A stretch of 38,420 nucleotides of DNA from Gemmataceae bacterium (GTDB lineage Bacteria > Planctomycetota > Planctomycetia > Gemmatales > Gemmataceae), in assembly GCA_019694755.1 (NCBI GenBank), contig JAIBBI010000036.1:1-38420 (forward strand). The letters are read 5' to 3'. Positions 495 to 26,933 of this stretch are shown here, in pieces. The notes beneath the pieces are model-generated. The model was not told where the DNA came from. It made no database searches and saw nothing but the letters and a program-made list of their open reading frames with translations. Every line of letters begins with the position of its first letter. Position 1 is the stretch's first letter. The position numbers and the translations under genes are program-made.

Positions 495-2471
495 ATGACG
501 CCAATTCCGTCGAAGAACGATGCCGGCCGAGAAACGCCCGCGGAATGTCCGTCGTTGGTACGGCTCGAGTCCTTCCATTCGGGCCGGTGTACTGAAGAAG
601 AAGTCGAACGCATCGGTTCGCACATCGAGTCGTGCCCGGCCTGCGAATCGCGACTATCGCAATTGGACACCGCGGACGATGCCATCGTCGCGGGTCTGCG
701 TGATGCTGTACCGTCAATGTTTGAATGGCGGCCCGGTACTGTCATCGGTGAATACGAATTGATCGAACTTCTCGGTGCAGGTGGTATGGGGCGGGTCTGG
801 AAGGCCCGGCACAGGCGGATGAACCGCGAGGTGGCGATCAAGGCCATGCACCGGCCCGCACAGGCGACCGCCCAATTGACGCAGCGGTTTCAGCGAGAAG
901 TGGAAGCCCTGGCCGCCCTGCGTCATGCCAACATCGCGATGGCATTCGATGCCGGCGAAAACCAGGGACAACCGTATCTGGTGATGGAATATCTTGCGGG
1001 GCAGGATCTTGGGCAACGCCTGACCGCCAGCGGCGCGATGCCCATCAAGGAAGCGTGTGGATACGTCCTTCAAGCGGCACGCGGACTGGCCTACGCCCAT
1101 GAGCAGGCGCTGATCCATCGCGATGTCAAGCCGGCGAATCTGTTCCTGACACAAGAAGGGACCATCAAAGTCCTTGACCTCGGTCTCGTCAGACGGCCCG
1201 AGGACGAGGAGTCCCCGTTACCGGGCACCGGCGACACGCTCCGTGACGTGAAGCTGACATCGGCAACGACGATCATGGGCACGCTCGACTACGCGGCCCC
1301 GGAGCAGTTCACGAATTCGCTCTCAGTCGATCATCGGGCCGACGTTTACGGGTTGGGTGGCACGCTGTTCGCAATGCTGGCCGGCAAGAGTCCGTTTACG
1401 CGATCCACGCCGCAGAAAACGTGGCAAGCGCATTTGCGGGACGAGGCACCGCCGTTGCGGACGTTGCGGCCCGACGCGCCGGCCCGGCTGGAGCGACTAT
1501 GTCAGAAAATGCTGGAACGCGACCCGTCCCGGCGTTGTTCGTCGATGCAGGAAGTTATCCGCGAGCTTGAGGCAATATTGTGCCGGCCACGCCGGGTTGG
1601 ACTATTAGCCGGTCTGACAGCGGCCGCCTTACTCGCTGCCGGTGCGGGATACTGGTGGAGTCGCCCCGCTCCGGCAGAGCCGTTGATCGCGCCCGTTGCA
1701 TCGGCCGTCGCTGCGGCCAGTCAGTCGCAGTGGGCCCGATGGTTAGGCGTGGAAGTCCAGACGACGAATAGTGTCGGTATGGCGCTTGTGCTTGTGCCGC
1801 CGGGCGAGTATGCGGACGGGAAAGCTCGGCTGTCCGAGCCGGTTTATGTCGGCGCGCATGAGACGACGATGGCCGCATTCCGTCAGTTCGTTCAAGCGAC
1901 CGGATACGTTACGGAACCGGCGCGGACCAAGGGTGGTTGGATGCCGAAATATGAGCGCAAACCGAATGAAAGTCCCTTTTCCGAAGACAAGAAGTGGAGC
2001 TGGGAAACCCCGGGTTATGCCGTAGTCGAGAACAACCCCGTTACCCAGGTGAGCTGGAATGACACGATGGCCTTTTGCGGGTGGCTCAGCGCAAAAGAAG
2101 GTGCCGTCTATCGGCTGCCCACTGAGGCGGAGGCACGGTGGTTCATGCGGGCAGGGGCGGGGACGCGATACTATTTCGGCGACGACAGCAAGCGGACTGC
2201 GGATCACGCATGGTACGATTCCAATTCCAACCGTCGGGCTCGTGGAGTGGGCTACAATCGCCCGAACGTATGGGGCTTGTACGACACCATCGGCAACGCG
2301 ACAGAGTGGTGCAGCGATTGGGTCAAGTCGGAGCCGCAGCGTTACAAAGTGGTGTTCGGCGGCTCATACTTCGACAAAGAAGAATCGCTTCTTCAAACGA
2401 TTGGCTATCATGTAGACCGCGGGGCTTCGATGATCGGATTCCGAGTCGTCCGCGAGATCGCCCGACCATGA
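495..2471 (+). CDS. Zinc-finger/Ser-Thr kinase/FGE-like fusion, membrane-anchored
   Basis: A 658-residue protein. Residues 18-50 hold an anti-sigma-type zinc motif (C18, C32, then H43-x3-C47-x2-C50). Residues 87-365 are a protein kinase: GAGGMG glycine loop at 94-99, VAIK lysine K116, HRD at 208-210, DLG (not DFG) at 228-230, APE at 268-270. A single membrane helix follows at about 369-387. Residues 425-655 are an FGE/SUMF1-fold domain (RLPTEAEARW, NVWGLYDTIGNATEWCSDWV, GGSY, GFRVVRE) that would lie outside the membrane. The cysteine pair of true formylglycine-generating enzymes is absent after GGSY, so it is probably a binding or sensor domain. The start is uncertain: ATG 495 has no clear ribosome site, and TTG 465 preceded by GGGA is an alternative. 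The stop overlaps the next gene's start (ATGA), so the kinase and sigma factor are probably translated together. Confidence 0.9.
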   Translation: MTPIPSKNDAGRETPAECPSLVRLESFHSGRCTEEEVERIGSHIESCPACESRLSQLDTADDAIVAGLRDAVPSMFEWRPGTVIGEYELIELLGAGGMGRVWKARHRRMNREVAIKAMHRPAQATAQLTQRFQREVEALAALRHANIAMAFDAGENQGQPYLVMEYLAGQDLGQRLTASGAMPIKEACGYVLQAARGLAYAHEQALIHRDVKPANLFLTQEGTIKVLDLGLVRRPEDEESPLPGTGDTLRDVKLTSATTIMGTLDYAAPEQFTNSLSVDHRADVYGLGGTLFAMLAGKSPFTRSTPQKTWQAHLRDEAPPLRTLRPDAPARLERLCQKMLERDPSRRCSSMQEVIRELEAILCRPRRVGLLAGLTAAALLAAGAGYWWSRPAPAEPLIAPVASAVAAASQSQWARWLGVEVQTTNSVGMALVLVPPGEYADGKARLSEPVYVGAHETTMAAFRQFVQATGYVTEPARTKGGWMPKYERKPNESPFSEDKKWSWETPGYAVVENNPVTQVSWNDTMAFCGWLSAKEGAVYRLPTEAEARWFMRAGAGTRYYFGDDSKRTADHAWYDSNSNRRARGVGYNRPNVWGLYDTIGNATEWCSDWVKSEPQRYKVVFGGSYFDKEESLLQTIGYHVDRGASMIGFRVVREIARP

Positions 2472-3076
2472 GCCGGCAGGACGCTACATCGCTGACTCTG
2501 CTGCAAAGGCTCCAGGGGCAGGACGATGCCGCGTGGTCGAGATTCGCATTCCTGTACCGTCCCCTGATCGTGTACTGGTGTGGCCGATGGAATGTCATGC
2601 CGGCCGACGAAGACGACCTCGTGCAGGAAGTAATGAAGGCCGTCCACACCCATTTGCCGGATTTTGAAAGGCTCGGCGAGTCGGGCAGCTTCCGTGCTTG
2701 GCTGCGGGGGATCACCCGGAACAAACTGCTGGAGTACGACCGCCGCCGGCGGACGAGGCTTCCGGTCGCCGAGGGCGGATCGGATGCTCAGGCCCGGTTG
2801 AATGCGGTCGCCGATTCCGCGCCGGCACTGGACGAAGGCCCGGCAGAGCTGGCAGGGTTGTACATGCGAGCCGCCGAAGCGATTCGCGGCGATTTTAACG
2901 ACCAGACCTGGCAGATTTTTTGGCGTACGACAGTGGAGAGTCAGTCGCCGGCGCAGGTCGCTACCGACCTGGGGCTGAAGCCAGCCGCGGTGCGGATGGC
3001 CAAAGCTCGGGTTCTGCGCCGGCTTCGTGAGCAGGTCGGCGACTTTGCCGATGGAGAACAAGCGAATGGAGATTAG
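2468..3076 (+). CDS. ECF-type RNA polymerase sigma factor
   Basis: A 202-residue sigma-70-family protein. Region 2 covers about residues 20-95 (LYRPLIVYWC, DEDDLVQEVMKAVHTHL, the core- and -10-binding SFRAWLRGITRNKLLEYDRRRR). Region 4 covers about 130-190 and includes the helix-turn-helix SPAQVATDLGLKPAAVRMAKARVLRRLRE, which reads the -35 element. The start ATG 2468 overlaps the kinase stop by four bases. The kinase carries a zinc motif of the kind found in anti-sigma factors, so it is the likely regulator of this sigma factor; that link is inferred. The stop overlaps the stop of the convergent gene at 3073. Confidence 0.9.
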   Translation: MSRQDATSLTLLQRLQGQDDAAWSRFAFLYRPLIVYWCGRWNVMPADEDDLVQEVMKAVHTHLPDFERLGESGSFRAWLRGITRNKLLEYDRRRRTRLPVAEGGSDAQARLNAVADSAPALDEGPAELAGLYMRAAEAIRGDFNDQTWQIFWRTTVESQSPAQVATDLGLKPAAVRMAKARVLRRLREQVGDFADGEQANGD

Positions 3077-3699: not shown

Positions 3700-4986
3700 T
3701 TGACGACCACGGGCGACACGACGGAAATTCGAGCCGTTCTCCGTCTTCCTGACTGCGAACTGGTCACACGGTTCGCAGACGCGGCCGACGAAGGTGCGTT
3801 TGGCGAACTGCTGCGCCGCCACGGGCCGATGGTGCTCGGCGTCTGCCGGCGGATCCTCCGAAACGAGTCGGATGCCGATGACGCCTTCCAGGCTACGTTC
3901 CTGGTGCTGGTCCGGAAGGCCGGCAGTATCGAGCCGCCGGGACTTGTGGGCAACTGGCTGTACGGCGTGGCTTACAACACCGCGTTGAAAGCGCGAGCTA
4001 TGAGTCAGAAACGTCTGGCGAGGGAAAACGCTGTCGTTCCGCGGACCCCGCCGACCGATGCCGGGATGTCGTGGGAGGAGATTCGGCCGATCCTCGATCA
4101 GGAATTGAACGCGCTGCCTGACAAGTACCGGGCGCCCGTGCTGCTCTGCGACATTGAAGGCAAGTCCCTGAAAGACGCGGCCGGGCACCTCGGCTGGCCG
4201 CTGGGGACAGTGGGGACCCGGGTGGCGCGCGGCCGGCAGATGCTGCGCCGGAGACTCGCCCGGCATGGCGTAACGCCCACTCTGGTCGCGCTCCCCCTTT
4301 TGCTGACGGAAAATGCCGCGAGCGCCGCCGTGCCGGCGCAATTGGCGAGTTCGACTGTGCAGTCGGCGGCGATCGTCATGCACGCGCCGGCCAATGCCGC
4401 GCTCGCGGTTTCAAAATCGGTCTTGTTGCTGTATCTCGCCGCGTTGCGGTCGCTCTTGCTTCGCCGGGTGAGCGTGCTGGCCACTTGGCTACTCGTCGCC
4501 GCGGCGGTCGGGGCGGCGGCAACGTCAGTTGTCTATTGGCAGATTTCCCCGTCCGCGTCGAAGACCGGTGGCACGACCAAGCCGCAATATCACCGACTGC
4601 ACGGTGAATGGGCACTGATATCCGTGACGCAGGGCGGTCGGATGCTGGCTCCCGAAGAATTTCGGCAGCATGCGAACTGGGCGTTTGACTGCGACAAATT
4701 GCTCGTGACGACTTCGGGCAAGGCTAGCGGGCGTTTCGCCGCCGACTCGATCAACTCGCCGAACGAATTGGAACTCTGGATGACCGGGGGCGACCGCGCG
4801 GTGTTCCCGCTGCGGGCTCTGGGGATCTATGAACTGGAATTGCGGACGCTGCGGATCGGATTACCCGGGCCGGGGACGCATTGGAACGAGCGTCCGAAAT
4901 CTCTCCAATCCCAGCCGGGCGATCATCCGATCACCGTGCTCGAGTTTCAGCGGGTGAACCGAAACAAATCTCGCGCTGCCAGTTGA
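3700..4986 (+). CDS. ECF sigma factor with membrane helix and C-terminal TIGR03067-like domain
   Basis: A 428-residue protein, about twice the usual ECF length. Region 2 is at about 30-100 (AFGELLRRHGPMVLGVCRRIL, DADDAFQATFLVLVRKA, GNWLYGVAYNTALKAR) and region 4 at about 130-190 (LPDKYRAPVLLCDIEGKSLKDAA, then PLGTVGTRVARGRQMLRRRLARHG). After it come hydrophobic stretches around 193-212 and 240-255 and a clear membrane helix at about 257-280. Residues 297-420 start with LHGEWALISVTQGGR and match the pattern of the planctomycete lipocalin-like TIGR03067 domain. The sigma part would be cytoplasmic and the last domain outside. Start TTG 3700 follows AAGGA with a 6-base spacer. The next gene, an exported dehydrogenase, starts 54 bp on and may be a target or operon partner. 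Confidence 0.85.
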   Translation: MTTTGDTTEIRAVLRLPDCELVTRFADAADEGAFGELLRRHGPMVLGVCRRILRNESDADDAFQATFLVLVRKAGSIEPPGLVGNWLYGVAYNTALKARAMSQKRLARENAVVPRTPPTDAGMSWEEIRPILDQELNALPDKYRAPVLLCDIEGKSLKDAAGHLGWPLGTVGTRVARGRQMLRRRLARHGVTPTLVALPLLLTENAASAAVPAQLASSTVQSAAIVMHAPANAALAVSKSVLLLYLAALRSLLLRRVSVLATWLLVAAAVGAAATSVVYWQISPSASKTGGTTKPQYHRLHGEWALISVTQGGRMLAPEEFRQHANWAFDCDKLLVTTSGKASGRFAADSINSPNELELWMTGGDRAVFPLRALGIYELELRTLRIGLPGPGTHWNERPKSLQSQPGDHPITVLEFQRVNRNKSRAAS

Positions 4987-8397: not shown

Positions 8398-8976
8398 GTG
8401 GCCGAACAGCCTTCCGTAACGACTTGGCTCAGCAAACTCCGCGACGGCGATGATGCGGCCGCCCAGTTTCTCTGGGAACGCTACTTCGCGAGATTGCTTG
8501 GTGTTGCGCGGACCAAGTTGCGGGGAACCTCACTTCGTGCGGCCGACGAAGAAGATGTCGCACTCTCGGCATTTCACAGCTTCTTTCGCGCGGCCGACAA
8601 GTTCCCAAGACTCAACCACCGTGGCGACCTCTGGCAAGTACTCATTGTGTTGACTGCACGCAAGGCATGTCAGGAAAGGCGGCGACAGAACACGACCAAA
8701 CGTGGGACTGCCGCCAAAAATTCACCGGCCTCCGATATCGAGATTGACTCGATCATTGGCGACGAACCTGATCCGGAATTTGCAGCATTGGTCGTTGATC
8801 AAGTTGAGTCTCTGGTCAACCTTTTGCCCACCTCGGAATTACGCCAGGTGGCCCGCTGGCAACTCGAGGATTACAGCAATGCGGAAGTGGCGGCCCGACT
8901 TGGTTGCAGCGAGCGCACAGTCGAGCGAAAACTAGCCCTGATTCGGCGGTACTGGGAAGAAAAGTCGCCGCCGTGA
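8398..8976 (+). CDS. ECF-type RNA polymerase sigma factor
   Basis: A 192-residue sigma factor. Region 2 is at about 14-98 (LRDGDDAAAQFLWERYFARLLGVAR, DEEDVALSAFHSFFRAADK, DLWQVLIVLTARKACQERRR). Region 4 is at about 135-188 (LPTSELRQVARWQLEDYSNAEVAARLG, then CSERTVERKLALIRRYW). The start is GTG 8398 with GGGGAG a few bases upstream. A kinase gene follows in the same direction after 68 bp, with a hairpin and T-tract between. Sigma factors of this kind beside kinases are typical of planctomycetes; control by the kinase is inferred. Confidence 0.9.
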   Translation: MAEQPSVTTWLSKLRDGDDAAAQFLWERYFARLLGVARTKLRGTSLRAADEEDVALSAFHSFFRAADKFPRLNHRGDLWQVLIVLTARKACQERRRQNTTKRGTAAKNSPASDIEIDSIIGDEPDPEFAALVVDQVESLVNLLPTSELRQVARWQLEDYSNAEVAARLGCSERTVERKLALIRRYWEEKSPP

Positions 8977-9044: not shown

Positions 9045-12000
9045 ATGAAGGTCACGCTAACTCTCGATCAGCAATTGGCCGTCGACGAATGCTGTACTGA
9101 GTTTGAGCAGGCGTTGCGTGCGGGCGGTTCTGCGACCGCCGCCGATTACTGGACCCGCGGCGAAGCCGCCGGTCGCCCGGAACTCCTTGAAGAACTCGTC
9201 GCTATCGAGATTGATTATTATCTGAGCCGTGGCGATGCGATTCGCGTCGAAGAATATCTGAGCCGATATCCCATTGCCGAGAAGGCTGTACGGACCGCTT
9301 TTGCCATTACTCGTGTGCGGCCGGAAACGCGCCAGACAGCACCAAATCCGCAGGTCGGCTTGCCGAACGTCGAGCGGTTCCTGATCGAGCGGGAACTGGG
9401 CCGAGGTGGAATGGGTGTCGTTTATCTGGCCCGACAGCCAACTCTTAACCGCCGGGTCGCGCTTAAGATGCTTCGGTCGCATGACACGGCCTCGCCGGAG
9501 CAGAAAGCCCGGTTCGAGATCGAGGGTGAACTTCTCGCCAGATTGCAGCACCCGAACATTGTCCGTGTTTACGAGTATGGTGATCGCGGCGGCCTTGCTT
9601 ACCTCGCAATGGAACTCGTCGACGGCGGTTCGCTCTCTGATCGCCTGAAATCCGAAGCCATGGCCGCGATAGAAGCGGCGGACCTCTGTGTCACGCTAGC
9701 CCGTGCGATCGAGTATGCGCACCGCAACGGCGTGATCCACCGCGACATCAAGCCGGGAAACGTCCTGTTTTCTTGCGAGGGTGTGCCGAAGATTGCGGAT
9801 TTCGGGCTGGCATTGTCCGAAGCGTCTGAGCAACGACTGACCATCAGCGGCGTGATCGCGGGTACGCCGAGTTACATGGCGCCGGAGCAAGCCGCCGGCG
9901 CAAGGCACCTCGGCCCGGCCGTTGACGTCTATGCCCTCGGCGCGGTCTTGTACGAAATGCTCAGCGGTCGCCCGCCGTTCCTCGGCGATAACGCCATCGA
10001 GACCAGCCGCAGGGTGTTGTCTGATGAGCCGGTTTCGCCGCGCAAAGTCCGGGCGGATGTGCCCGCGGACCTCGCGACAATAGCACTCAAGTGCCTGGAA
10101 AAAGACCCGGCCCGGCGGTATGCGACTGCCGGGGAATTGGCCGAAGACCTTGAGAGATGGCGGCGGTTCGAGCCGATCGTCGCCCGTTCGGCGGGTCGAG
10201 TCGAGCGGGTATTGAAGTGGTGTCGCCGGCAGCCAGTGTGGGCTACGGCAGTCGGCATGCTCTTCCTGGCATTTTTCATCGCGACATCGGCGGCCGTTAT
10301 TCTTCGTCGCGAACGCAACGCACTGACTCTGGAGCGGGAGCAAAGGAAACTGGCCGAGTGGGCGAGAACATGCGAACGCGTCGAAGGCCTGCTGACAACC
10401 GCTCCGGACCGTGTGCCCGGGTTGCTCGACGATCTCATCGACAACCGTGATCAGGTGTTGCCCCTGCTGCTTGAAGCGAAAAACTCTCCCGACAGACTCA
10501 AGCGATTTCGTGCGCTCGTGGGCATTTCCGCGCTCGAGCGAAACGACAGAGTTAGCTTGCCGCCGGAAGCGCTTGACGTGCCCGTGGCCGAAAGTCGGAA
10601 TTTGGGCCGATTACTACGTGTTGCCACTCCAGAGTCGTTGGCAGGTCTGCGCAAGCAAGCGAGAGAATCAGGTGCCGAACAGGGGCGGGCAGCCGCGATC
10701 CTGATCAGTGCGGGCGAGTTCGAGCCGGCCGAGGAGATGCTGGCCACAACGAGTGACCCTACACCACGGACTAGATTCATCGAGGAGTTTGCCGCATGGC
10801 ATGGCGACGTTGCTGGAGTGATCGAGCGACTTCGCGATCGGCCACCTGCAATTCGGTCCGGCTATTGTGCCGCGCTCGGTCGTGTCGATCTTGCTACCCT
10901 TCCTGCGACCGACCGCGAAGCGGTCGTTGCCGCGATAACACAAATTTATCGCGAAGACCCGGATGCCGGAACGCATAGTGCGGCCGGGTGGGCATTGCGC
11001 CAATGGTCAGCCGCGCCGCCGGAACTGGCGCGATCCCGTATTTCGGAGCCCGGCCGGGGGTGGTTCGTCAATCTCACGGGGCAGACGATGATTGCCGTGA
11101 ATCCCGGGGTGTATGTCCGGACAAACGGCGTCCCCGTAATCCTCACCGAGCAGTACTACCTGGCCGATCGCGAAGTTTCAGTAGACTTGATCCAGAAGTT
11201 TCGCGGAATCCCTAATTCCACTCCTGATAACCGGCCGGTGCTGGAGATTGACCGCACCGAGATGCTGAGATTCTGCAATTGGTTGAGCGAGCGAGAAGGG
11301 CGAACGCCCTGTTACCGGCCAAACGGTGAGTGGGACCGGTCGGCCGACGGTTACCGCCTGCCGACTGACGCAGAATGGGAGTACGCTCTGCGCGCTGGGG
11401 CCACGACGCGGTTCTTCTTCGCTGATGATCCGCGGTGGTTGCCGATGTACGCGAACATCGCCGCGTCCGGCCCTGCCCCGGGGGGGAGCAAGTTGCCCAA
11501 TCGCTGGGGCTTCTTCGACATGGTCGCCAACGCCTGGGAACTCGTCTGGGACTACGACGGATCCGAGTCAGGTTCGCTGAAAATCAATCCGACAGGGCAA
11601 ACGACGGGCACCCGTTGGATTACGCGGGGCGGCGCCTTCGACTCTGGAAGTTACGACACCTGGAGTGGCGCCAGGCACAGCATTGGCAATTCTCGTAGTC
11701 CCACCGTCTCGTTTCGTGTAGCTTGTGGCAAACCGGGGCCACAGGTCTTGGACGAGACCGAAATACTCCGCCGGCTTTCAGATTCGCCTGTCGGAAGTAC
11801 CCCGTCATATGAACGCCTACTGGCCGACCTCCATGCGGGAGCCCGGCAATGGACGCGGGCCGCCCGGCGGTACGAAGCGGTGCTTCGTAAGTCGTCGCAA
11901 CCCTTGGAACGCCAATGGGCCTTCTTCCTTGGCGGCGCGATGTACATGCTGGCAGGGGAGACCGAAGAGTTTACTCGTCTCCGTCGTGAGTTCCTGACGA

Positions 12001-12458
12001 ACCTAGCCGTACCGGAATCACCGATCGCTGCAGAGACTCTGGCAAAGGCCTGCTTGATAGCCCCGATTTCGCCGGCCCAAACGGAACTACTCGACAAACT
12101 GTCCCGGCACGGAACATCCACGGGTCCGACCAACTGCCATTTTTCGTATGCGGCCATGACCCGGGGCCTCTTCGAGTACCGGGCGGGAAATGACGCCGAA
12201 GCTCTCGCCTGGTTGAAAAAGTCGGAAAATGCGGACCGATTGAATTCGCCCAGTCGGGCGGTTCTTTCGTACTGTCAGGCAATGGCTTACCAGCGTACGG
12301 GCCAGGGGCCGAAGGCGATCCGTGCCTTGCAAGCAGGCGACGAAGCCATCGCAAGTGATGAGGCGGCATGGAGATCCGGCACACACGTACCCTTTGTCCA
12401 CGATTTTTATCTCGCATTGGTCTGGCGGGCAGAGGCTCACCGAACGGTTACGCCGTGA
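9045..12458 (+). CDS. Membrane Ser/Thr kinase with FGE-like domain and helical C-terminus
   Basis: A 1137-residue protein. Residues 1-100 are helical, of a type common before planctomycete kinases. The kinase is at 111-375 with GRGGMG at 119-124, VALK K141, HRDIKPGN at 232-239, DFG at 252-254 and APE at 279-281, so it looks active. A membrane helix lies at about 397-419. Residues 430-665 are helical and repeat-like. An FGE/SUMF1 fold covers about 670-895 (RLPTDAEWEYALRAGATTRFFF, NRWGFFDMVANAWELVWD, RGGAFDSGSYDTWSGARH, FRVAC); the catalytic cysteine pair after RGGAF is missing. Residues 920-1130 look like TPR repeats. The start ATG 9045 has GGGA 11 bases upstream. The gene probably acts with the sigma factor just before it. 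Confidence 0.9.
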   Translation: MKVTLTLDQQLAVDECCTEFEQALRAGGSATAADYWTRGEAAGRPELLEELVAIEIDYYLSRGDAIRVEEYLSRYPIAEKAVRTAFAITRVRPETRQTAPNPQVGLPNVERFLIERELGRGGMGVVYLARQPTLNRRVALKMLRSHDTASPEQKARFEIEGELLARLQHPNIVRVYEYGDRGGLAYLAMELVDGGSLSDRLKSEAMAAIEAADLCVTLARAIEYAHRNGVIHRDIKPGNVLFSCEGVPKIADFGLALSEASEQRLTISGVIAGTPSYMAPEQAAGARHLGPAVDVYALGAVLYEMLSGRPPFLGDNAIETSRRVLSDEPVSPRKVRADVPADLATIALKCLEKDPARRYATAGELAEDLERWRRFEPIVARSAGRVERVLKWCRRQPVWATAVGMLFLAFFIATSAAVILRRERNALTLEREQRKLAEWARTCERVEGLLTTAPDRVPGLLDDLIDNRDQVLPLLLEAKNSPDRLKRFRALVGISALERNDRVSLPPEALDVPVAESRNLGRLLRVATPESLAGLRKQARESGAEQGRAAAILISAGEFEPAEEMLATTSDPTPRTRFIEEFAAWHGDVAGVIERLRDRPPAIRSGYCAALGRVDLATLPATDREAVVAAITQIYREDPDAGTHSAAGWALRQWSAAPPELARSRISEPGRGWFVNLTGQTMIAVNPGVYVRTNGVPVILTEQYYLADREVSVDLIQKFRGIPNSTPDNRPVLEIDRTEMLRFCNWLSEREGRTPCYRPNGEWDRSADGYRLPTDAEWEYALRAGATTRFFFADDPRWLPMYANIAASGPAPGGSKLPNRWGFFDMVANAWELVWDYDGSESGSLKINPTGQTTGTRWITRGGAFDSGSYDTWSGARHSIGNSRSPTVSFRVACGKPGPQVLDETEILRRLSDSPVGSTPSYERLLADLHAGARQWTRAARRYEAVLRKSSQPLERQWAFFLGGAMYMLAGETEEFTRLRREFLTNLAVPESPIAAETLAKACLIAPISPAQTELLDKLSRHGTSTGPTNCHFSYAAMTRGLFEYRAGNDAEALAWLKKSENADRLNSPSRAVLSYCQAMAYQRTGQGPKAIRALQAGDEAIASDEAAWRSGTHVPFVHDFYLALVWRAEAHRTVTP

Positions 12459-18177: not shown

Positions 18178-19668
18178 CTAACGAGCTGACTTGTCGAGTG
18201 CCTTGATCGAGAACTCTTTCGATGAGACGTGTTCCCGATCCATGATGGATGTCAACTTTCTGACCTCGTCGGGCATCTGCCCGGCGAGGTCTTTCGTTTC
18301 CGCCCGGTCGGCGGCTAGGTCGTACAGTTCGACGCCACCTGGCGACTTATCCTTGGCTTTCGCTCCGGGGTTCAGGTTTCGGCGGATCGCCTTCAAGTTC
18401 CCGACCCGCACGCACTGCTGGCCGCCGTACCCGGGCGACTCGCGGTACAGAAACGCCCGGGCCGGTTGCTGTTCGCCGCACAGCGTGGGCCAGAAGCTGA
18501 TTCCGTCGATGTCGCGGGGGACAGCGTTCTTCGCGCCGGCCATCTCCAGCAACGACGGCAACCAATCCTCGAAGCCGGTGACGCGGTCGCTGACTGTGCC
18601 GGGAGCAATCCGGCCCGGCCAGGCGACGATGCCCGGCACGCGGAATCCGCCCTCGTAGAATGAACCCTTCCGCCCGCGAAGGCCGGCCGCACTGTCGAAG
18701 AAGGCCGAGTCGGTGCCGCCAAGTTGATCGTAGAGTGGGCCGTTGTCGCTCGTGAACACAACGACGGTGTTGTCGGCAATCTTCAACTCGTCGAGCAGAC
18801 TCAACAGCCGACCGATGTCGCGGTCCATGCGAGTGATCATCGCGGCGTAGGCCGCCCGCGGCCGCGGGTGTGGCAGGTAGCCGCGGTTCCCCGTGTAGGG
18901 CGTCTCGGGAAACGCGTCGGCATACTCGCGGAGTGAGTCCTCCGGCACTTGCAGCGCGAGGTGCGGCACTGTCGTCGGGTAATACAGAAAGAACGGCCGG
19001 TCACGGTGCTCGCGCACGAACTCGAGCGCCTTTTCGGCAATGACATCGGGTGCGTACTCCTTCCCGGCATAGCCCGCGTAGGTCTTGGGGTCGTTGAGGT
19101 CTGCGCCGGTCGGGAGTTTCTGATGGGCCGCGAGTTTCGGGTTGTTCAGCGGGTATGGCTTGGCGTTATCCCAAAGACTGGTCGGGTAGTAGTTGTGGGC
19201 GACGGCCTGGCAGTTGAATCCGAACCAGCGGTCGAAGCCCTGCTTCAGTGGGTCACCCGGGCTGCCCACCGGGCCAAGACCCCATTTGCCGAACCCGCCG
19301 AGGGCGTAGCCCTGCCGCTTGAGCGCGAGCGGCAGGCCGAGGTAATCGGCCGGGACGCTTTCCTGACCTTCTGGATAGCCCTTCTGCTGGCGGTTATCGC
19401 GGATGTAAGCGTGCCCGGGGTGTCGGCCGGTCATGAGCACGCACCGCGACGGAGCGCAGACATTGCTGCCGGAGTAGTGCGAAGTCAGCCGCATGCCGCG
19501 GGCCGCGAGAGCGTCGAGGTTCGGCGTGCGGATCTTCGGTTGCCCGAAGCAGCCGAGATCGCCGTACCCGAGATCGTCCGCGAGGATGAAGACGATGTTC
19601 GGCAGCCGATCGGCGGCGGTCGCGGTAGTACAAGCGAGCGTGAACAGAATCGTGGCTAAAGCACGCAT
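18178..19668 (-). CDS. Secreted type I sulfatase (arylsulfatase family)
   Basis: A 496-residue sulfatase that removes sulfate esters, probably from sulfated polysaccharides. A signal peptide covers 1-19. Metal ligands D31 and D32 are in FILADDLGYGD, and D308/N309 in FTSDNG. The active-site motif CAPSRC begins at C71, the cysteine that a formylglycine-generating enzyme must oxidise. TGRHPGH at 80-86, K128 in GFGKWG, H236 in TVPHLAL and K334 fit the family active site. Start ATG 19668 has GGAGAG 5-6 bases upstream. The gene shares a 143-bp divergent region with the aldehyde dehydrogenase gene, which holds an imperfect hairpin (GTGCC/GGCAC) but no clear promoter. Confidence 0.94.
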   Translation of the reverse strand: MRALATILFTLACTTATAADRLPNIVFILADDLGYGDLGCFGQPKIRTPNLDALAARGMRLTSHYSGSNVCAPSRCVLMTGRHPGHAYIRDNRQQKGYPEGQESVPADYLGLPLALKRQGYALGGFGKWGLGPVGSPGDPLKQGFDRWFGFNCQAVAHNYYPTSLWDNAKPYPLNNPKLAAHQKLPTGADLNDPKTYAGYAGKEYAPDVIAEKALEFVREHRDRPFFLYYPTTVPHLALQVPEDSLREYADAFPETPYTGNRGYLPHPRPRAAYAAMITRMDRDIGRLLSLLDELKIADNTVVVFTSDNGPLYDQLGGTDSAFFDSAAGLRGRKGSFYEGGFRVPGIVAWPGRIAPGTVSDRVTGFEDWLPSLLEMAGAKNAVPRDIDGISFWPTLCGEQQPARAFLYRESPGYGGQQCVRVGNLKAIRRNLNPGAKAKDKSPGGVELYDLAADRAETKDLAGQMPDEVRKLTSIMDREHVSSKEFSIKALDKSAR

Positions 19669-23344: not shown

Positions 23345-26311
23345 CTATCCGCCCGGATTTTCCACCTTTTTCCAACGGCGGGCTTCTTCCAGCAGATGCC
23401 GGATTTCCGGTGCAGTGCGGATCGACTCCAATTCCGGATCGCGGTCAACCAGGTCCACGCCGTACCCTTCGTGGATCGCCCGGCCAAGCAGGTCGACCGC
23501 CCGAGCCCGGTCTTCGGGTTTGTCGCGTGCCGTCAGAGCGTAAATCCCGGCCACCTGATAGATGACATCCGCCCGATCGTCGAGGCCGAGCTTCTTATCA
23601 CCGGCCGCCAGCTTCAGAGCTTGGGCCGCATCCTCGCGTGCGCCGGACCAGTCGCTCATGCGAGCCTTCAGCACGCCCCGGCCGGCCCGGAACTCCGCCT
23701 CGCGCGGTTGCAACCGGATAGCCGCATCGAGGGCGGTTATGGCCCGCGCCGTCTTTTGCAGATAGTCGGTGTCGATGTGCGCTTTCTGCGCCCAGGCGCG
23801 GGCCGACTTCGGGTACACCTTCAGGCACTCCTCGGCATCGATCAGCGCGCCGGCCGGGTCGCGGGGAAGCCGGGCCGATGACCGCGCGAGCCAGTCGTTC
23901 TCCGTGATCGGCGTCGCGGCCAAACCCTGCTTGAAGTCGGTATCCGCGCCGGCTTTATCACCCTTCGCCCGCCGGATGCGCGACCGCAGGAACCAAAGTC
24001 GGGTCTCCGGATACCCGGTCTCGATTACGCGCGACAACTCGGCTTCCGCGCCGGTGTAGTCTTTCATCGCCATCAGGATGATCGAACGGTCGATGCGGGC
24101 GGCCGCCTGGGAATCGTCCAGTTTCAGAGCCCGGTTGATGTCGCGGATCGCCTGTTCAAGTTGGCCAAGTCGGAGGTAACTCAGCGCCCGGCCGTGATAA
24201 CCGTCCGCCACAGTAGGCCCCAGCGCGATACACGTGGAGAACGATCGTGTGGCCGCGAGGTCGGAGCCGAGCGCGGCTTCCGCCTGCCCCCGGCCGAACC
24301 ACGCGTGCATTGAATCCGGTTCATGAATCGTCGCTTCGCGGAACTGTTCATACGCGGCCCGGACCCGCTGTGTGCCGAGCAGCACCAGCCCCTGCACAAA
24401 CCGGTCGGCGCCTTCGACATTTGGATAGCTCGCCGCGACTTCGCCGGGCCCGTCCATGCTTGTCTGCCAGCGCACTTGCTGTTCGGCCAGCGTCGAATTC
24501 GGGCCTGCCAGCAGGGCGGCCTTCTGGTTCCATTCGCGAGCCGTATTCGTGTGTTGCTCGGCCTTTTGCGGCTCCCACTGCGATTGTTGCCAGGCGGCCC
24601 GCGCCAGCAGGAGCGCGAGTGTCGCCCGCTCCTGACGATGGGCCGGGTCCTCGACCGGGAATCGTGCCATGGCCCGCTCGGCCGTTGCCACTCCACGGCG
24701 AAAGGCGTCAGGCGAGAGGTCGGGCAACGCGAGCGCCAGTTGGGCGGTACGCGATTCATCGCGAAACAGGCACGCATTCTCGACCTGACGGAGCCGTTCG
24801 CGGTCACGCCGCAACTCCAACCCGATGGCTCCCATCGTCGCGAGCGCGGCGACCGCCAACGCGGAGATGCTGCTCGCCGAAGTCAGTCGCGGGTGGCGGC
24901 GGTACCATTTCGCCGCCCGTTCCCGCCACGAGGGCTCGGCCGCGTGGGCCAGTGGGCGGTCCTGCAGCTGCGCGAGCAGATCGTCGTGTAACTCCCGCGC
25001 GGTGCGGTAGCGCTGGCCGGGGTCCGGGGCAAGGCACTTGCGGACGATGGCGGCGACGGCCGGCGATGCTGCAGTTTCGACGCGGGCGACATCCGGCACC
25101 GCATTCTTCCGATGCTGAAGGATGCGTTCCATGAATGACTCGACCGATTCACCCTTCCGCGGCCGCTCAGCAGGGACGCCGAATAGCTCAGCCAGCACCA
25201 GGCCGAACGAGTAGACGTCGGCCCGGGCGTCCGGTGCCGACCCGCCGAGTCGGAACGACTCGAGCTGCTCGGGTGCCATGTACGGGAGCGTACCGCCGAC
25301 CATCGCCGCCGCCGCGATCCGGTCGGCCGACTCTGCCGCCAGGTTGAAGTCGAGCAACAGCGGTTCGCCGTCGTCGGCGATCAGGACGTTGGCCGGCTTG
25401 ATGTCGCGGTGACAGATGCCGCGTTCATGGGCGTGGGCGAGTGCGTCCGCCAGCCGGGCGAATTTGTTCAGGGTGGCCCACGTCGCCTCGCGCGGGGTCG
25501 GCTTCGAGCCCTGTCGGCCGGGGATCAGGCCGGCGATTGCCTCGGCGGCGGATCGGGCCGTGCCGGCGTTCATCGCCCGTACGACGTCGGCCAGCGTGGT
25601 CGACCCGCGGTAAGGCATGCAGATGATCGTGTGGTGTTTCGTCCGCTGGGCCGAGTAGATCGGCATGATGTTCGTGTGCTGGACCCGTGCGAGGGCCTGA
25701 ATCTCGAATTGCGCTTCGGTCGAGAATTTGACGACGATCCGCCGGCCGTCGACCGCGGCCTCGGTGGCCAGGAACACACGGCTGAACGCGCCCCGGCCCA
25801 GTTCTTCAAGGAGGCGGAACCCGGCCACTGATTGGCCGGCGATGGGAAAGCTGGCGATGGCGTCTTCGTAAGTTTGTGCTGCCTCGGGCTGCCGGCTGCG
25901 CAATTCGTCGACGAATCGGGTGATCGCCGCGTCGCGCTCGTCGGCCGCCGGGTCGCGGGCCACCGCCGTCGAGCCCTGGGCCTTGGCCGTGCCGGCCGCA
26001 GTCCGCCCGGTGCCGCTCGCGCTCTCCGCTTGCTGCAGGCGTCGCTCTTCAAACAGAATCTTGTCGCGGAGTTCCGGGTCGCGGCGCAGCGCGGGAAATC
26101 GACGAAGGTACATCTCGGCGGAGGTCGGTCGGCCTGCGGCCCGAGCCAATTCCATCTCCACGCGGACGAGTTCGACCAGAGCAGTGGAATACAGCTCGCT
26201 GTCGGCCGGAGGGAGGAAGTCGGCCAGGTCTGCGCCCTGCGGCGCGTGAAACGCCTCCTCGAATGCGGAGACGATTTCCTCGAGTTCGGTCATCGTCGCC
26301 GACCAGGTCAT
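23345..26311 (-). CDS. Membrane Ser/Thr kinase with TPR repeats and DFN motif
   Basis: A 988-residue protein. Residues 1-95 are a helical lead common in planctomycete kinases. The kinase is at 164-450: GRGAFSRVFL at 172-181, K195 in IVVKF, an insertion at about 250-275, CHRDIKPANV at 300-309, DFN (not DFG) at 321-323 and PYMAPEQ at 343-349. A membrane helix lies at about 479-499. Residues 510-985 carry repeated TPR-like units (for example YHGRALSYLRLGQLEQAIRDINRAL split across about 690-720, and later LVRDPE-like end units). The start ATG 26311 overlaps the sigma stop as ATGA, with GGAGAG upstream. Translational coupling to the sigma factor is likely; the TPR part would be the sensor or docking surface. 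Confidence 0.9.
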   Translation of the reverse strand: MTWSATMTELEEIVSAFEEAFHAPQGADLADFLPPADSELYSTALVELVRVEMELARAAGRPTSAEMYLRRFPALRRDPELRDKILFEERRLQQAESASGTGRTAAGTAKAQGSTAVARDPAADERDAAITRFVDELRSRQPEAAQTYEDAIASFPIAGQSVAGFRLLEELGRGAFSRVFLATEAAVDGRRIVVKFSTEAQFEIQALARVQHTNIMPIYSAQRTKHHTIICMPYRGSTTLADVVRAMNAGTARSAAEAIAGLIPGRQGSKPTPREATWATLNKFARLADALAHAHERGICHRDIKPANVLIADDGEPLLLDFNLAAESADRIAAAAMVGGTLPYMAPEQLESFRLGGSAPDARADVYSFGLVLAELFGVPAERPRKGESVESFMERILQHRKNAVPDVARVETAASPAVAAIVRKCLAPDPGQRYRTARELHDDLLAQLQDRPLAHAAEPSWRERAAKWYRRHPRLTSASSISALAVAALATMGAIGLELRRDRERLRQVENACLFRDESRTAQLALALPDLSPDAFRRGVATAERAMARFPVEDPAHRQERATLALLLARAAWQQSQWEPQKAEQHTNTAREWNQKAALLAGPNSTLAEQQVRWQTSMDGPGEVAASYPNVEGADRFVQGLVLLGTQRVRAAYEQFREATIHEPDSMHAWFGRGQAEAALGSDLAATRSFSTCIALGPTVADGYHGRALSYLRLGQLEQAIRDINRALKLDDSQAAARIDRSIILMAMKDYTGAEAELSRVIETGYPETRLWFLRSRIRRAKGDKAGADTDFKQGLAATPITENDWLARSSARLPRDPAGALIDAEECLKVYPKSARAWAQKAHIDTDYLQKTARAITALDAAIRLQPREAEFRAGRGVLKARMSDWSGAREDAAQALKLAAGDKKLGLDDRADVIYQVAGIYALTARDKPEDRARAVDLLGRAIHEGYGVDLVDRDPELESIRTAPEIRHLLEEARRWKKVENPGG

Positions 26312-26892
26312 TGCGTGCTCTCCTCGAGCTGGCTCGCCAGGGCGTTGCGGAATTCCTGGAGGATTCGCTCGACCGACCGTTTCGCCCGGCCCGTGGTCGC
26401 GGCGATCGCATTCACATCGTTGCCCTCGATCCGGAGCGTGATGATCCGGCGCGATGACTCCGGCAGCCCGGCCAGGATCTCATCGATCGTCATCCGCAGC
26501 GTCGTCAGGGCTTCCGTTTCGTTGCCGTCGGCGTGCGGCGGCAGGATATCAAGCTCCGTGCCGGTCGCCGTGTTGCGTGCGTCGCGCATGGCCGCCCGGT
26601 GGTAGGCCCCGGTAGCCCGCGCCTTGTTCAATGCGATGACGAGGAACAGCTTCCAGAGTTCCTCGCCGTCCGGCACCGAATACTGCCCGAGAGCGGCCCG
26701 CCGGAAGAACGTGCGGAAGACGGATTGGACGATGTCCTCGGGGTCGACCCGGCTCTGAAGTTCGGAGCCGGTCTGCTTCCGCGCCAGGGCGTGCAGACGC
26801 CCGGCATACTTCAGGTAGAGCTGAGTGGCGGCATCGTCCTGGCCCTGCCGGAACCGGGAAAGCAGATCACGATCCGATTCGCCCGGTTCCAT
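26308..26892 (-). CDS. ECF-type RNA polymerase sigma factor
   Basis: A 194-residue sigma factor. Region 2 is at about 10-98 (LLSRFRQGQDDAATQLYLKYAGRLHALAR split at 10-38, DPEDIVQSVFRTFFRRA, ELWKLFLVIALNKARA). Region 4 is at about 128-190 (LPESSRRIITLRIEGNDVNAIAATTG, then RAKRSVERILQEFRNAL). ATG 26892 follows GAGG with 5 bases; GTG 26910 in the same frame is an alternative adding six residues. The stop overlaps the kinase start by four bases. It lies about 40 bp after the stop of the second RND gene, so readthrough from the efflux operon is possible. Confidence 0.9.
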   Translation of the reverse strand: MEPGESDRDLLSRFRQGQDDAATQLYLKYAGRLHALARKQTGSELQSRVDPEDIVQSVFRTFFRRAALGQYSVPDGEELWKLFLVIALNKARATGAYHRAAMRDARNTATGTELDILPPHADGNETEALTTLRMTIDEILAGLPESSRRIITLRIEGNDVNAIAATTGRAKRSVERILQEFRNALASQLEESTQ

Positions 26893-26933
26893 CGGTGCCT
26901 CGTCGCCCACATCGAGAGTAGTCGAAAATGGAT

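Follow-up and report, generated by a model that had tools for sequence, protein, structure and literature searches.

A planctomycete receptor kinase with a predicted N-terminal anti-sigma domain is encoded beside an ECF sigma factor

We analyzed 38,420 nucleotides of contig JAIBBI010000036.1 (hereafter the window) from the 5.6-Mb, 97% complete assembly of a planctomycete, a Gemmataceae bacterium (GCA_019694755.1). Close to the start of the window, a Ser/Thr kinase gene runs directly into an ECF sigma factor gene (Table 1). The initial annotation had described a kinase with a C-terminal FGE-fold domain past the membrane, whose stop codon overlaps the sigma start; Pfam matches and hydropathy place kinase domain, hydrophobic segment and outer FGE-sulfatase domain in this order, and the ATGA overlap is present. 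The catalytic set of the kinase is complete (K116, E135, HRD 208–210, N215, and DLG 228–230), and judged by these residues the domain is an intact Hanks-type Ser/Thr kinase. A hydrophobic segment C-terminal to the kinase domain is found in 80 of 84 relatives. Close orthologues of the whole protein were not found at E 1e-100 among the 12 candidates scored per genome in 94 further genomes from the family, nor by a peptide scan.

Table 1. Features of the kinase-sigma locus (window coordinates)
Feature	Position	Strand	Details
Anti-sigma-domain receptor kinase gene	495..2471	+	658 aa
Class I anti-sigma-like zinc domain	543..710	+	residues 17–72
Zinc-domain ligand codons	C18 546–548, H43 621–623, C47 633–635, C50 642–644	+	
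Hanks-type Ser/Thr kinase domain	753..1550	+	residues 87–352; Pfam Pkinase, 7.7e-50
Predicted transmembrane helix	1596..1652	+	residues 368–386; hydropathy
FGE-sulfatase-like domain	1824..2453	+	residues 444–653; Pfam FGE-sulfatase, 2.9e-30
ATGA overlap, kinase stop / sigma start	2468..2471	+	TGA 2469–2471, ATG 2468–2470
ECF sigma factor gene	2468..3076	+	202 aa; Pfam Sigma70_r2
Acidic motif DEDD, sigma region 2.2	2606..2617	+	residues 47–50; DxxD position of canonical ECFs

Active FGE carries a catalytic/copper cysteine pair after an EWxxDW motif. The domain of the 495–2471 kinase has no cysteine after C606; an enzymatically active FGE was rejected because the catalytic pair is absent, and we read the domain as a sensor or scaffold, probably a sensor. 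Its fold is not illuminated by the full-length model, in which the FGE part partly has pLDDT values below 50 and for which only kinases are among the Foldseek matches listed. A role as target of a diversity-generating retroelement was also rejected, as no RVT_1 match is found at E up to 0.001 in the assembly. The window further contains a sulfatase gene with a C-A-P-S-R motif (18178–19668, minus strand), which shares the contig with two FGE-domain kinases; the FGE domain described here is without the cysteines needed to activate this sulfatase. Planctomycete Ser/Thr kinases with a sulfatase-modifying-factor domain likewise combine a kinase, one transmembrane helix and an outer FGE domain, and FGE ranks third in frequency among the accessory domains of the surveyed planctomycete kinases, mostly on the periplasmic side (PMC11032199).

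A C/C/H-x3-C-x2-C zinc-finger arrangement had been proposed for the N-terminus of the kinase. Four of these residues stand, giving the ligand set C18-x24-H43-x3-C47-x2-C50, whereas C32 was rejected as a ligand because it is not conserved, its column normally being Leu among aligned relatives. In a search with the single protein, zf-HC2 matches residues 29–50 with 16.6 bits, short of the Pfam cut-off of 22.2; this is weak evidence, whereas that from the family is strong. From kinases adjoining relatives of the sigma gene we took 86 N-terminal segments, aligned them and built a profile. All 86 have H43, C47 and C50, by construction, because the rows were picked for Hx3Cx2C. The first ligand, 25 residues before the His, lies at a position free of this selection and is Cys in 63/89 and His in 12/89 sequences. 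Other unselected columns are conserved as well (relative to the His: Leu at −19, aromatic or Leu at −16, Gly at −13, and Leu at −11).

When the profile was run against all PDB sequences, six hits had E-values under 0.1: DdvA (6.8e-9), a CHAT-domain protein sharing the DdvA N-terminus (2.1e-8), ChrR (8.1e-8 and 9e-8), RslA (1.1e-7), and RsiW (0.022). Two more, at E 0.72, are at chance level. The ligand columns align with ChrR residues 6, 31, 35 and 38, and at a permissive threshold 50–56 of the 86 members are hit by models of the ChrR family, RsrA and other anti-sigma factors. Judging by the −25 ligand, the pattern of hydrophobic positions and the profile matches to anti-sigma factors, all of them free of the row selection, we consider that the ligand arrangement is not due to chance.

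An AlphaFold model of the zinc domain predicts helices at residues 21–29, 34–46 and 48–71, with pLDDT above 90 at about residues 20–60. Foldseek ranks ChrR (in complex with SigE) first, followed by AlgU-MucA, RsiW and RslA, with a few unrelated chains interspersed; the E-values are all above 0.5, which is expected because the segment has only 84 residues. VIA-align Z-scores are 7.4 for ChrR, 5.6 for RslA, 5.5 for RsiW and 5.4 for MucA, with the first unrelated chain at 3.1, and these Z- and E-values are modest for such a small helical domain. The segment thus combines the Hx3Cx2C motif over helices 2–3 and an upstream Cys/His ligand with homology to solved class I anti-sigma domains (ASDIs), a predicted small helical bundle and, in the window, an overlapping ECF sigma gene, features of ASDI/ZAS factors. 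From sequence and model we assign it to the ASDIs. The anti-sigma-type identity and the helical fold first suspected for this region are therefore upheld by the PDB profile matches and by a predicted fold like that of ChrR, RsiW, RslA and MucA. The closest known system is ChrR, the zinc anti-sigma factor of SigE in Rhodobacter sphaeroides, which shares ASDI homology over profile positions 1–58 and the ligand spacing, and is the best structural match. ChrR is a soluble protein with a cupin-type C-terminal part; the domain described here is fused to a membrane kinase.

Such a domain could act as a redox or zinc switch, with thiol oxidation releasing the sigma factor as in RsrA while the kinase serves other substrates. 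The ligand set fits ZAS factors, and the RsrA model TIGR03988 matches 56/86 members at E up to 1. However, six kinases match the anti-sigma profile without having Hx3Cx2C (loci L125, L134, L146, L221, L239 and L242) and so resemble zinc-free ASDIs, and the first Cys can be replaced by His, as noted above. Both observations favor a structural role for zinc, and the loss of ligands in the six kinases makes sigma binding a likelier conserved function than the sensing of zinc or redox state; we regard an RsrA-like switch as quite improbable.

The adjoining sigma factor bears on a second alternative. Ser/Thr kinase-activated ECF43 factors are without the acidic DAED motif and gain the charge by phosphorylation (PMC8103513, PMC8999054, PMC13147305), and the ECF43 systems EcfP-PknT and EcfK-PknS likewise have a transmembrane Ser/Thr kinase gene beside an ECF sigma gene. 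If the present pair worked in this way, the kinase would activate its sigma factor by direct phosphorylation and the zinc domain would be merely a docking piece. Such a mechanism would agree with the kinase-ECF gene pairing, with the listing of planctomycete ECF59, ECF61, ECF62 and ECF217 as phosphorylation-regulated (PMC8999054), and with the finding that EcfK is phosphorylated in its linker too (PMC13147305). In ECF43 sigmas, however, DxxD is replaced by uncharged residues, whereas our sigma factor has DEDD at residues 47–50 and its relatives have Asp or Glu at position 47 in 115/118 rows and at position 50 in 117/118. In addition, the kinase carries a homologue of anti-sigma inhibitors, for which EcfP has no counterpart. 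Retention of DxxD argues against EcfP-type activation, which we consider unlikely at this locus. The groups associated with Ser/Thr kinases besides ECF43 retain the acidic motif and may act differently (PMC8999054). ECF59, ECF61, ECF62 and ECF217 come from the same phylum and have a kinase neighbor, and the sigma factor of 2468–3076 may well be a putative member of one of them; they are listed as usually lacking an anti-sigma factor (PMC8999054), whereas here the kinase carries an anti-sigma domain. A kinase-borne domain that inhibits the sigma factor would provide the control that is missing when the sigma factor keeps DxxD. A search for a shared ECF-type promoter motif upstream of 99 operons gave nothing above shuffled sequences.

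We then surveyed relatives of the sigma gene; the window and 120 retrieved stretches together gave 117. For 89 of these, Hx3Cx2C is present in the nearest kinase. By profile, the nearest kinase has the domain in 92/117 cases and is without it in 10, while the remaining 15 lack a kinase domain inside 3.5 kb. Three gene orders occur: sigma then kinase (69), divergent (15), and, as in the window, kinase then sigma (5). Scanning a named collection as well, we found a domain-bearing kinase at 58 of 71 loci, including those of Zavarzinella formosa DSM 19928, Schlesneria and Pan216; because part of these records duplicate loci of the first survey, this set is only partly independent. The sigma-gene coupling that the annotation had read from the ATGA overlap is kept by relatives, which retain the cysteines together with the sigma neighbor. 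In the genome of the window, the domain is present in 9/9 kinases adjoining such a sigma gene versus 0/21 others (Fisher p 7e-8), a comparison drawn from the 30 kinases ranked most similar to the 495–2471 kinase and hence not a random sample. Clear matches to zf-HC2 in kinase frames, searched genome-wide, adjoin sigma genes of the same family. Outside the class, 2/75 sampled genomes matched at E 1e-25, and by these counts the family is concentrated in this planctomycete class. One sigma-kinase pair of the same genome (L082, C168:3049–4439) has stops inside the sigma match and a zinc-domain frame apart from the kinase frame, and is a decaying copy or an assembly error.

Within genomes, sigma and zinc-domain distances correlate (r 0.34; 10 of 2000 partner permutations reach the observed value), no more strongly than sigma and kinase distances do, and linkage alone could produce so weak a correlation. 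The domain might bind a partner other than the adjoining sigma factor, the pairing reflecting shared operon ancestry only. Contact between domain and sigma factor is something we infer, and the window kinases adjoining PF07638-type sigma genes carry a different N-terminal segment. Set against this, the domain occurs in kinases beside this one sigma type, in three gene orders, in the DNA examined, and every good match among solved structures is either an anti-sigma factor or a protein with the N-terminus of one. To us another partner appears very improbable, slightly more so than the redox switch.

Two further sigma-kinase pairs lie in the window. A PF07638-type ECF sigma gene (8398–8976, plus strand) is followed by a kinase gene (9045–12458, plus strand) encoding more than 1100 residues with an FGE domain and without the zinc domain. 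In the other pair, on the minus strand, the kinase (23345–26311) has a TPR outer part and its gene overlaps the sigma gene (26308–26910) by four bases. The kinases paired with PF07638-type sigmas have an N-terminal segment in common (9045–9380, plus strand; 25826–26311, minus strand) of approximate pattern FE.A...ELV..E.......EYL.R(F/Y)P (BLASTP 1e-6 over 64 residues), which is possibly another sigma-binding module. As these two kinases pair with sigma genes and are without the zinc domain, kinase-sigma pairing does not need the domain.

For the 495–2471 kinase, we think it slightly more likely than not that the protein serves as its own anti-sigma factor at the membrane, releasing the sigma factor once the outer domain is triggered. 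The N-terminal zinc domain, presumably cytoplasmic and with its predicted ASDI fold, would keep the adjoining ECF sigma factor at the membrane, and the FGE-like domain, not an active FGE, would take in a signal on the outside. The kinase would then become active and phosphorylate one or both of the partners, anti-sigma domain and sigma factor, and this phosphorylation would be the release step that frees the sigma factor for RNA polymerase. A precedent with separate proteins exists in Mycobacterium tuberculosis, where PknB phosphorylates RshA and SigH is freed (PMC8999054, PMC13147305). The PknB-RshA-SigH system likewise joins a kinase, a zinc anti-sigma factor and an ECF sigma factor in one pathway, there as three separate proteins.

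The pairing is widespread in planctomycetes, and the window locus is one member of a common, apparently little-described design. The initial annotation knew of no characterized case of the exact three-part fusion. The fusion is not singular: it is found again in the same genome (L080 and L092) and is one version of a large planctomycete family whose outer modules can be exchanged. FGE modules occur in about 7/90 domain kinases, including these two, a lower bound obtained with one query sequence, and WD40 propellers are present in about 24/84. With somewhat less confidence than for the single locus and short of an even chance, we raise a more general reading. It concerns a large class of planctomycete ECF-kinase pairs that are classified as regulated by phosphorylation and lacking an anti-sigma factor. 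In these, the kinase would fill that role itself, a single polypeptide combining outside sensing, inside phosphorylation and release of the sigma factor bound to it.

Each component of this design is already known. The text of the planctomycete kinase survey makes no mention of a zinc or anti-sigma domain (PMC11032199), and among the openly searchable papers on ECF factors, kinases and anti-sigma domains none describes a kinase with a fused ASDI, although the main ECF classification papers may already do so. If our reading is true, many planctomycete sigma factors come with an inhibitor of their own, which escaped notice through its position at the N-terminus of a kinase, and receptor kinases can act on transcription directly. 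One conserved cytoplasmic core with exchangeable outer modules (WD40, FGE and others) would help to explain the multiplication of signaling in planctomycetes. Downstream of the locus, the window contains another ECF sigma gene (3700–4986, plus strand), whose product has a long C-terminal extension with a hydrophobic stretch.
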